A stretch of 64,000 nt of DNA from assembly GCA_012840445.1 (NCBI GenBank), contig DULI01000008.1, positions 1 to 64,000 on the forward strand, in the 5' to 3' direction. Under the pieces are notes generated by a model, which was not told the origin of the DNA, made no database searches, and saw only the letters and a program-made list of their open reading frames with translations. This document shows positions 14,395-17,731 of this stretch, one piece after another. Position 1 is the first letter of the stretch. Each line of letters opens with the position of its first letter. The DNA is from Clostridiales bacterium (lineage in GTDB: Bacteria; Bacillota; Clostridia; Oscillospirales; Acutalibacteraceae). The translations under genes and the position numbers were made by a program.

Positions 14395-14631
14395 ATGGCA
14401 AATAAAATTTTTGTCGATGTAGTTGTCAAATACGACGCGGAGGGCAACATAATCCCGCTTTCAATCCTATGGGAGGATGGCAGGATCTTTGAAATAGACA
14501 AGGTAGTGGATGTACGGCCCGCTCCCAGCCTTAAAGCGGGAGGACAGGGGATTCGCTTTACCTGCAGGATACAAAATAAATACAGGTACCTGTTTTTTGA
14601 AGAGCCCCGCTGGTTCGTGGAGGGAAGTTGA
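14395..14631 (+). CDS. Small conserved-looking protein downstream of dinB
   Basis: A 78-residue protein I cannot assign firmly. It is predicted mostly beta (KIFVDVVVKYDAEGNIIPL, then GIRFTCRIQNKYRYLFFEE) with a WEDGRIFEIDKV segment, like small barrel proteins. A strong AAAGGAGG site sits inside the 12-nt gap after dinB, so the two are translated from one message. Short beta-rich proteins beside dinB are known in other phyla and may act with the polymerase; that link is inference from position only. Confidence 0.75.
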   Translation: MANKIFVDVVVKYDAEGNIIPLSILWEDGRIFEIDKVVDVRPAPSLKAGGQGIRFTCRIQNKYRYLFFEEPRWFVEGS

Positions 14632-15602: not shown

Positions 15603-15692
15603 TAAAACCCGTCCAAAGGGGTGGGTATTATATTTTTAGGTATAATTTGGAATATTAAGCTAATAATAAAAAGGAAAAAGGGGGAATGCCTA

Positions 15693-15827
15693 TTGCCGAA
15701 AGACAGCCAGCCAGATAAAAAAGGCGTACGCGAAGAAAAAGCAAACGGACAGACACCATTGACCCGGGAAAACCAGAACAAAAACAAAAACGCTAAACGC
15801 AAATCCATAAAGCACAACGATGTCTAG
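15693..15827 (+). CDS. Tiny lysine/asparagine-rich protein (44 aa), no. 1
   Basis: A 44-residue hydrophilic protein starting at TTG 15693, supported by AGGGGGAA 6 nt upstream. It has no hydrophobic core: the tail runs NQNKNKNAKRKSIKHNDV. Composition and a PLxxENxNKNKN pattern faintly recall minor small acid-soluble spore proteins such as SspP, but this is only composition-level similarity. Its stop codon overlaps the ribosome-binding site of the next tiny gene. Function unknown. Confidence 0.6.
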   Translation: MPKDSQPDKKGVREEKANGQTPLTRENQNKNKNAKRKSIKHNDV

Positions 15828-15838
15828 GAGGTGTAAAA

Positions 15839-15952
15839 ATGTCAAAGGCAAGCAGGGAAAAGAAAAAGAAACTTGCAGTCCAGCAGGAGAAAATGAGAAA
15901 GGAAAACCAAGCAGCACAAAACAACGCACAGAATAACGAAAACAATAATTAG
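15839..15952 (+). CDS. Tiny charged helical protein (37 aa), no. 2
   Basis: A 37-residue protein starting at ATG 15839 after a near-perfect TAGGAGGTG site. SREKKKKLAVQQEKMRKEN should form a charged helix; the tail is Asn/Gln only (NNAQNNENNN). No family recognised. It lies 11 nt after tiny gene 1 and 12 nt before tiny gene 3, which makes chance unlikely. Confidence 0.65.
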   Translation: MSKASREKKKKLAVQQEKMRKENQAAQNNAQNNENNN

Positions 15953-15964
15953 TCGGTGTGATTT

Positions 15965-16099
15965 ATGAGTAATAAAAATTCCGGCAAAAACAAAAATAAA
16001 GACGGAAAATTCAAATCCAAAAAAATAAAACACGATCCTAACGCCGAAAGCGCACGGGCGGTTTTCGGCCTTAAAAGCACGAATCCCAAAGATGACTGA
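15965..16099 (+). CDS. Tiny lysine-rich protein (44 aa), no. 3
   Basis: A 44-residue protein starting at ATG 15965 (GTCGGTGTG upstream). The first half is a lysine/asparagine repeat (NKNSGKNKNKDGKFKSKK), the second half contains IKHDPNAESARAVFGL. The phrase SKKIKHD echoes RKSIKHND in tiny protein 1, hinting at common origin. Its end overlaps the start of the HD-domain gene by 8 nt (ATGACTGA), so the two are translationally coupled. Confidence 0.65.
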   Translation: MSNKNSGKNKNKDGKFKSKKIKHDPNAESARAVFGLKSTNPKDD

Positions 16100-16712
16100 A
16101 AAACAGCAGCTTTTTAATGAAATAGACACACATTTGCAGTCAGACGCAGCCCCGTCAGCCTATCTAAACAGCATATCAGAGACACACCTGTTTAAACAGA
16201 AACCCTTTGTGTACCTTTACAGGCTGAAATCCACAGAACAGCCGAAAAAATACCACCCCGAAGGCAGTGTGTGGAACCATACAATGCTGGTGGTTGACAG
16301 GGCTGCCGAATATAAAACAAAAAGCAAAGATATAAGGGCCTTTATGTGGGCGGCGCTCCTGCACGATATCGGAAAGCCTGATACCAGGATACGCAATGGC
16401 AAAATCACCTCCTATGACCACGAAAAGGTGGGTGCGGCGCTTGCGAAAGAGTTTCTCAGTGAATTTGTGCGAGATGAAGCCCTTGTATCAAAGGTTTCCA
16501 GCTTAATAAGGTGGCACATGCAGGTGCTTCATGTATCAAAAGGGCTGCCCTTTGCCGAGATTAAACCAATGCTGGCGCAAACCGATGTAGAGGAAATCGC
16601 GCTGCTAGGTCTTTGTGACAGGCTAGGGCGCCTTAACGCAGATGTGGAAAGGGAAACCGAAAGCATAAAGGCTTTTAAGGAAATTTGCTTAAAGGAGCAG
16701 AGGAATGCCTAA
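16092..16712 (+). CDS. HD-domain phosphohydrolase
   Basis: A 206-residue protein with a single HD domain. Metal ligands are visible in order: WNHTMLVVDRA, ALLHDIGKPDT (HD pair), YDHEKVG, and a later SSLIRWHMQV. The layout resembles the HD part of bacterial CCA-adding enzymes and the YqeK/PolyA_pol-associated type, but no nucleotidyltransferase domain is attached. The likely reaction is phosphate-ester hydrolysis on a nucleotide or RNA end; substrate not predictable. It has no ribosome-binding site of its own: translation should depend on the overlapping 44-residue gene upstream. Another 44-residue gene overlaps its end. Confidence 0.82.
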   Translation: MTEKQQLFNEIDTHLQSDAAPSAYLNSISETHLFKQKPFVYLYRLKSTEQPKKYHPEGSVWNHTMLVVDRAAEYKTKSKDIRAFMWAALLHDIGKPDTRIRNGKITSYDHEKVGAALAKEFLSEFVRDEALVSKVSSLIRWHMQVLHVSKGLPFAEIKPMLAQTDVEEIALLGLCDRLGRLNADVERETESIKAFKEICLKEQRNA

Positions 16713-16839
16713 AGAAGGAATGAAAAGGCCCGACCCGGAAGAAGTGGGCGGCCCGAAAAAGAAGCGCAACATACAACCTCCGGTGCCCGAACTTCAGGGC
16801 AAGGTAAAGACGGGCAAAAAGAAAGCAAAACCCGGATAA
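16705..16839 (+). CDS. Tiny basic protein (44 aa), no. 4
   Basis: A 44-residue proline/lysine-rich protein starting at ATG 16705, 8 nt inside the end of the HD gene, with AAAGGAG upstream. It contains KRPDPEEVGGPKKKRN and ends LQGKVKTGKKKAKPG. It has the same length as tiny proteins 1 and 3 and similar charge but no clear sequence identity. A terminator follows directly. Function unknown. Confidence 0.65.
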   Translation: MPKEGMKRPDPEEVGGPKKKRNIQPPVPELQGKVKTGKKKAKPG

Positions 16840-16842
16840 CGC

Positions 16843-16881
16843 AAAAACTTCACCTGAAAATTTTGTCAGGTGAAGTTTTTT
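16843..16881 (+). terminator. Terminator closing the tiny-protein/HD operon
   Basis: AAAACTTCACCTGA pairs with TCAGGTGAAGTTTT across a short loop, followed by T residues, 3 nt after the last stop. Confidence 0.9.
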
Positions 16882-17460: not shown

Positions 17461-17731
17461 AAATTGAAACCGCCAAAATACGATGACAGGGCCGGTAATA
17501 CAGACCAGTTCTTTTCAGAGAACCGTCGGTTGGTGCGAGACGGCAAAGAACCCTGTATTAGATCACCCTCGAGTAGGCTGCTGAAATCCGTTGGAGAGTA
17601 GGTTCGCCCGGGTCTTCCCGTTACAGGAGAATACATTGTTGGATGTATTAAGTGGTCGCTTTATGCGGCAATTAAGGTGGTACCGCGGAAGTTTACAGCT
17701 TTCGTCCTTATTTTGGACGAAAGCTTTTTTA
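17461..17731 (+). promoter_or_regulatory. T-box riboswitch upstream of ilvA, isoleucine specifier
   Basis: A classical T-box leader. The conserved T-box sequence AAGGTGGTACCGCGG is at 17674-17688. The specifier is probably ATC at 17562-17564 (within AGATCACC), so uncharged tRNA-Ile would turn on the threonine dehydratase gene, the first isoleucine step. The terminator stem pairs AGCTTTCGTCC at 17697-17707 with GGACGAAAGCT at 17715-17725, followed by six T residues. Confidence 0.92.

Follow-up and report, generated by a model that had tools for sequence, protein, structure and literature searches.

Known small proteins comparable to those considered here are the SASPs of endospores. The α/β-type SASPs (PF00269) are small sigma-G spore proteins, while the minor SASPs of Bacillus (SspH-SspP and Tlp) form a further set of small, basic and hydrophilic proteins, most of which have been reported missing from Clostridia (PMC3533761). 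The CPC_1213 family is recorded as NF040908, an entry without an assigned function, and a search on CPC_1213 in the literature available found no paper. On the enzyme side, the closest described systems are the A-adding tRNA nucleotidyltransferase of Aquifex (structures 3wfo-3wfs) and the bacterial CCA enzymes (TIGR02692). In the E. coli CCA enzyme, the HD domain acts as a 2',3'-cyclic phosphodiesterase, a 2'-nucleotidase and a phosphatase.

Layout of the small-protein operon

The locus lies in a stretch of 64,000 nucleotides from a Clostridiales bacterium (contig DULI01000008.1), called the window below. A frame check on the window placed an HD gene among four small basic frames between 15693 and 16839, in the order S1-S2-S3-HD-S4:

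15607-15626, + strand: terminator-like hairpin (8-pair stem, T-rich tail), 3' of the dehydrogenase gene, which it parts from the small-protein operon
15640-15668, + strand: forespore-type promoter-like site GTATA-N17-AATAATA, 24 nt 5' of S1
15693-15827, + strand: S1, 44 aa, TTG start
15839-15952, + strand: S2, 37 aa, rich in Lys, Asn and Gln, with a strong Shine-Dalgarno sequence
15965-16099, + strand: S3, 44 aa, CPC_1213 family (NF040908)
16092-16712, + strand: HD, 206 aa, stand-alone HD-domain phosphohydrolase (PF01966)
16705-16839, + strand: S4, 44 aa, basic and Pro-rich
16843-16880, + strand: strong intrinsic terminator (15-pair stem and T-run) closing the operon

All five frames have the coordinates given in the original prediction, and the two 8-nt overlaps that it described are exact: ATGACTGA joins S3 to HD (16092-16099) and ATGCCTAA joins HD to S4 (16705-16712). 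S1 and S2 are 11 nt apart, S2 and S3 12 nt. Each frame had been credited with a strong ribosome-binding site or a stop/start overlap; the Shine-Dalgarno sequences of S1, S2 and S4 are indeed good, whereas that of S3 is weak (GGTG) and this frame overlaps HD. Each of the four small proteins has a pI of about 10, a net charge of +5 to +8 and 16-24% hydrophobic residues. The 5' neighbour of the operon is a stress dehydrogenase (PRK06701-like SDR) and the 3' neighbour a deoxyinosine glycosylase (TIGR04274); given the terminators on both sides, neither gene belongs to the small-protein unit.

Two further features of the window may be recorded. Directly 3' of a Y-family DNA polymerase gene (PF00817), positions 14395-14631 encode a 78-aa protein without a match in Pfam, whose size and position resemble those of a YolD-type partner. 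At 17474-17712, a T-box leader (RF00230, 119 bits) stands 5' of a threonine dehydratase-like gene.

Three conserved small-protein families

In a sample of 391 Clostridia genomes, homologues were found in 22 for S1, in 29 for S3 and in 51 for S4. Herbinix (L031) carries copies of S1 and S4 that are 84% and 59% identical to those of the window, and the S4 of Mobilisporobacter senegalensis (L032) is 61% identical. The conserved cores are PKDSQPDNK..R.EK..QTPIT for S1, DGKF.SKNIKHDPQAESARAVFG for S3 and AKAGMRRPDP..PHGTESN...PVPEIQGKAKTG for S4, the window copy of which reads MPKEGMKRPDP...PVPELQGK. The S1 sequence begins MPKDSQPDKK, and as M(P/A/T)KDSQ opens all 23 of the other collected homologues at this same position, its TTG start is confirmed.

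In Nei-Gojobori comparisons, pN was lower than pS in 276/276 pairs for S1, 553/561 for S3 and 528/528 for S4, and the closest pairs of the three families gave dN/dS values of about 0.04-0.2. S1, S3 and S4 are real conserved protein families under strong purifying selection. The original prediction had staked itself on the frames being conserved between relatives and on a synonymous to non-synonymous ratio away from one, and for these three both were found. S2 had no homologue in the loci collected or among 20 genomes of carriers and relatives; it is an unproven candidate, a reading frame preceded by a good ribosome-binding site.

S3 clearly belongs to CPC_1213, scoring 63.2 bits against NF040908 (curated cut-off 33); this family had no match in 14 well-known control genomes, Bacillus subtilis included. 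S1 and S4 gave no match to NF040908 and had no counterpart among the models of Pfam and NCBIfam. Homology among S1, S3 and S4 was ruled out by profile-profile comparison, in which the probability was about 0.2% or less, as it was for S1 and S4 against NF040908; the faint phrases RKSIKHND and SKKIKHD, once taken as a shared trait, are thus no sign of kinship.

Other small proteins were also seen beside CPC_1213 genes. A recurrent basic protein of about 41-48 aa, ending like E(M/I)xKHKSKGVIR, occurs in four genomes of one family (L060:1666-1797, L063:1368-1493, L064:1326-1457, L070:1643-1789), and a second recurrent small protein, of 51-55 aa (NKNRLKDRPKSN...NSDLGII), in two genomes (L068:1280-1435, L073:1622-1789).

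The HD enzyme and its co-inheritance with S1 and S3

The HD protein scores 39.8 bits against PF01966 (cut-off 22), and its AF2 model has a mean pLDDT of 93. Among solved structures, the protein comes closest to the A-adding tRNA enzymes 3wfo-3wfs (TMq 0.70-0.74), to which the sequence also matches with an E-value of about 4e-15. The protein has the HD fold with an intact H...HD...D set of metal ligands, and H63, H91-D92, H110, H142 and D176 are invariant in 18 orthologues, which makes an active metal phosphohydrolase very likely. Judging by the activities of the HD domain in the E. coli enzyme, nucleotides or the 3' ends of RNA would be the first substrates to consider. Two assignments were rejected: a full CCA- or A-adding tRNA nucleotidyltransferase, given that the 206-aa protein has no head domain and reaches 62.6 bits against TIGR02692 (cut-off 438.8), and a Cas3'' nuclease (TIGR01596, 25.3 bits, cut-off 43.45). 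One orthologue (G204, L164) contains a TAA inside the match and may be decayed.

Translational coupling of S3 to HD is recurrent: the two genes overlap or abut at seven loci from five families (the window, G006, G029, G110, G206, G398 and G394). In the window, Herbinix, Mobilisporobacter and G451 it is S4 that abuts HD, and in G273 S1 lies less than 300 bp from HD. The slot 5' of HD seems open to more than one kind of small basic protein: in G190, 7 nt separate the end of another tiny basic frame, of 47 aa (L172:465-608, MSVKHDRENKKGNKQDKLKN...), from the start of HD. Apart from HD and the small genes, no conserved neighbour was found for S1, S3 or HD, and for S4 only a SPOCS gene in one family.

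S1, S3 and HD are also co-inherited. S1 and S3 occur together in 19 genomes against 1.6 expected, and HD is present in all 19, mostly unlinked. Of the genomes with S1 or S3, 25/32 have an HD orthologue, as against 4/40 of the SpoIVA-positive genomes with none of the small families (p = 4e-9, without correction for relatedness). Within one family (f65), HD accompanies S3 in all 15 carriers and is absent from both non-carriers tested. As a blind check, a genome first known through its HD gene (G025) was found to contain S1 and S3, located far apart. Conservation, the flanking terminators and a coupling to HD that recurs in several lineages support the earlier view of the small frames as probably real and co-translated for S1, S3 and S4, and the good ribosome-binding site is all that speaks for S2.

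The repeated coupling and adjacency, the presence of HD wherever S1 and S3 meet and the kinship of HD to an A-adding enzyme would also be expected if S1, S3 and S4 were nucleic-acid-binding accessory subunits or activators of an HD enzyme that trims or heals RNA (tRNA) ends, with the link to sporulation being secondary. However, S3 occurs without HD in five genomes of another family (f51), HD was found in only two of the eight genomes tested that carry S4 alone, the four of 40 genomes mentioned above have HD without any small family, and the genes are unlinked in most genomes. We therefore regard this reading as unlikely. The original suggestion that the small proteins are partners of the HD enzyme is supported in the sense of co-inheritance and repeated adjacency, but a physical partnership is hypothetical, and S3 and S4 are frequently found without HD.

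Association with sporulation and comparison with known systems

With spoIVA as the sporulation marker and completeness of at least 90% as the definition of a good-quality genome, all 53 good-quality carriers of S1, S3 or S4 were SpoIVA-positive, compared with 235/318 in the background (p = 2e-8, without tree correction). The only SpoIVA-negative carriers are two incomplete assemblies. α/β-type SASPs were present in 30/30 carriers tested, and the genome of the window itself has both SpoIVA and SASP. S1, S3 and S4 are confined to endospore-forming clostridia. Since the sampled genomes are related, the p-values are too good; S3 carriers, for example, are clustered, with 15 of 29 in one family and 7 in another. 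Many spore-formers lack all three families, none of which can therefore be essential. In 11 genomes of one family (L112-L115, L119, L121-L123, L126, L129 and L131), S4 adjoins a gene with a SPOCS domain (PF12673), a neighbour of the spore-coat type. Altogether, the association of S1, S3 and S4 with the spore is fairly well supported.

Promoter motifs were counted, with at most one mismatch to the consensus, in the upstream regions of 92 family members and of 80 long genes from the same loci. The sigma-G motif, for which the Bacillus consensus was used, preceded 26 small genes and 8 controls (p = 0.004), and the sigma-F motif 10 and 1 (p = 0.01). The sigma-A motif was depleted (0 against 9, p = 0.0008), a reversed decoy gave no significant difference (13 against 8), and neither sigma-E (4 against 7) nor sigma-K was enriched upstream of the small genes. 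The strict Bacillus consensus finds only 5/29 SASP promoters and is thus a poor yardstick; for this reason, the SASP promoters of these genomes were also used to train a two-block matrix, which detected 15/92 small genes against 1/67 controls. The window's own promoter does not score with this matrix (3.7 bits). Its site GTATA-N17-AATAATA has one mismatch to the sigma-G consensus and also one to that of sigma-F, and an equally good site occurs by chance 5' of about 10% of control genes. Sigma-F and sigma-G promoters are known to overlap in C. difficile (PMC3789822, PMC7438776). Forespore expression of the small genes from forespore-type promoters is moderately supported, the enrichment being modest. 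The original proposal that these may be minor spore proteins thus gains indirect support, from carriers that are spore-formers only and from the enriched forespore-type motifs.

The same distribution and motifs bear on whether S1, S3 and S4 could instead serve the general stress response or the stationary phase in spore-forming clostridia rather than being spore components. The stress and DNA-repair genes next to the operon in the window would fit, but the dehydrogenase, which had been offered as context, is set apart from the operon by a terminator and is no conserved neighbour: a gene of this type appears once among 62 S3-flanking genes. Together with the restriction of carriers to SpoIVA-positive genomes and the enrichment of forespore motifs, this makes a general stress role improbable.

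A mobile or defence element built from an HD nuclease and small basic proteins would account for the patchy spread over distant families and for the weak similarity of HD to Cas3''. The defence and phage comparisons, however, gave weak HD-superfamily matches only, with Cas3-HD below its cut-off; the best relative of HD is a tRNA enzyme, the small proteins have no PHROG match, none of the families was present on 72,556 plasmid records searched for named, annotated homologues, and the carriers are spore-formers only, so that such an origin is very hard to credit. Least plausible of all are chance open frames in A-rich DNA: the frames are short and of low complexity, and S2 could still be one, but homologues with pN far below pS refute the idea for S1, S3 and S4.

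The reading that we favour, and consider rather probable, is that of a sporulation operon encoding cationic spore-core proteins made in the forespore, like the minor SASPs, together with a co-inherited stand-alone HD phosphohydrolase. In this sporulation operon, S1, S3 and S4 would be three unrelated families of tiny, cationic and probably disordered proteins, whose genes sigma-G/sigma-F most likely switch on in the forespore. By analogy with the minor SASPs of Bacillus, they would gather in the spore core as a coat or condensing agent for nucleic acid; alternatively, they might serve there as a basic, digestible filler. HD, being of the A-adding-enzyme type, would find its substrates, RNA 3' ends or nucleotides, in that compartment too. 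The spore-core location, the nucleic-acid binding and the HD substrate are inferred here. A bolder and rather doubtful extension is that S1, S3 and HD form a dedicated spore-core system of clostridia that keeps RNA usable through dormancy, in which the peptides would package RNA and not only DNA, and HD would process damaged or cyclic tRNA 3' ends in late sporulation or germination.

S1, S3 and S4 may well be proteins of the dormant spore that have been overlooked. Two of the three families (S1 and S4) are without a Pfam or NCBIfam model and all are too short for reliable annotation; as families tracking spore formation, they could fill part of the minor-SASP gap in clostridia. Inherited along with one HD phosphohydrolase, also where unlinked, they point to a concrete candidate enzyme function in the forespore.

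Compared with the systems described at the outset, the window's HD shares its fold and invariant metal ligands with the Aquifex A-adding enzyme and the bacterial CCA enzymes, but corresponds to their HD part alone, without the nucleotidyltransferase head. For CPC_1213, the restriction to spore-formers and the coupling to an HD gene are first described here. The α/β-type SASPs accompany S1, S3 and S4 in every carrier tested, without sequence similarity to them. No Pfam match was found for S1-S4 of the window at E <= 10, SASP families (α/β, γ, SspH-SspP and Tlp) included, nor did 38 family members match the SASP models. From the minor SASPs of Bacillus, S1, S3 and S4 thus differ in sequence and in their occurrence in Clostridia, yet they resemble them in size, in basic hydrophilic make-up, in a spread limited to spore-formers and, on moderate evidence, in putative forespore-type promoters. 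The best account, drawn from this analogy, is that S1, S3 and S4, while belonging to no minor SASP family, would work like minor SASPs.
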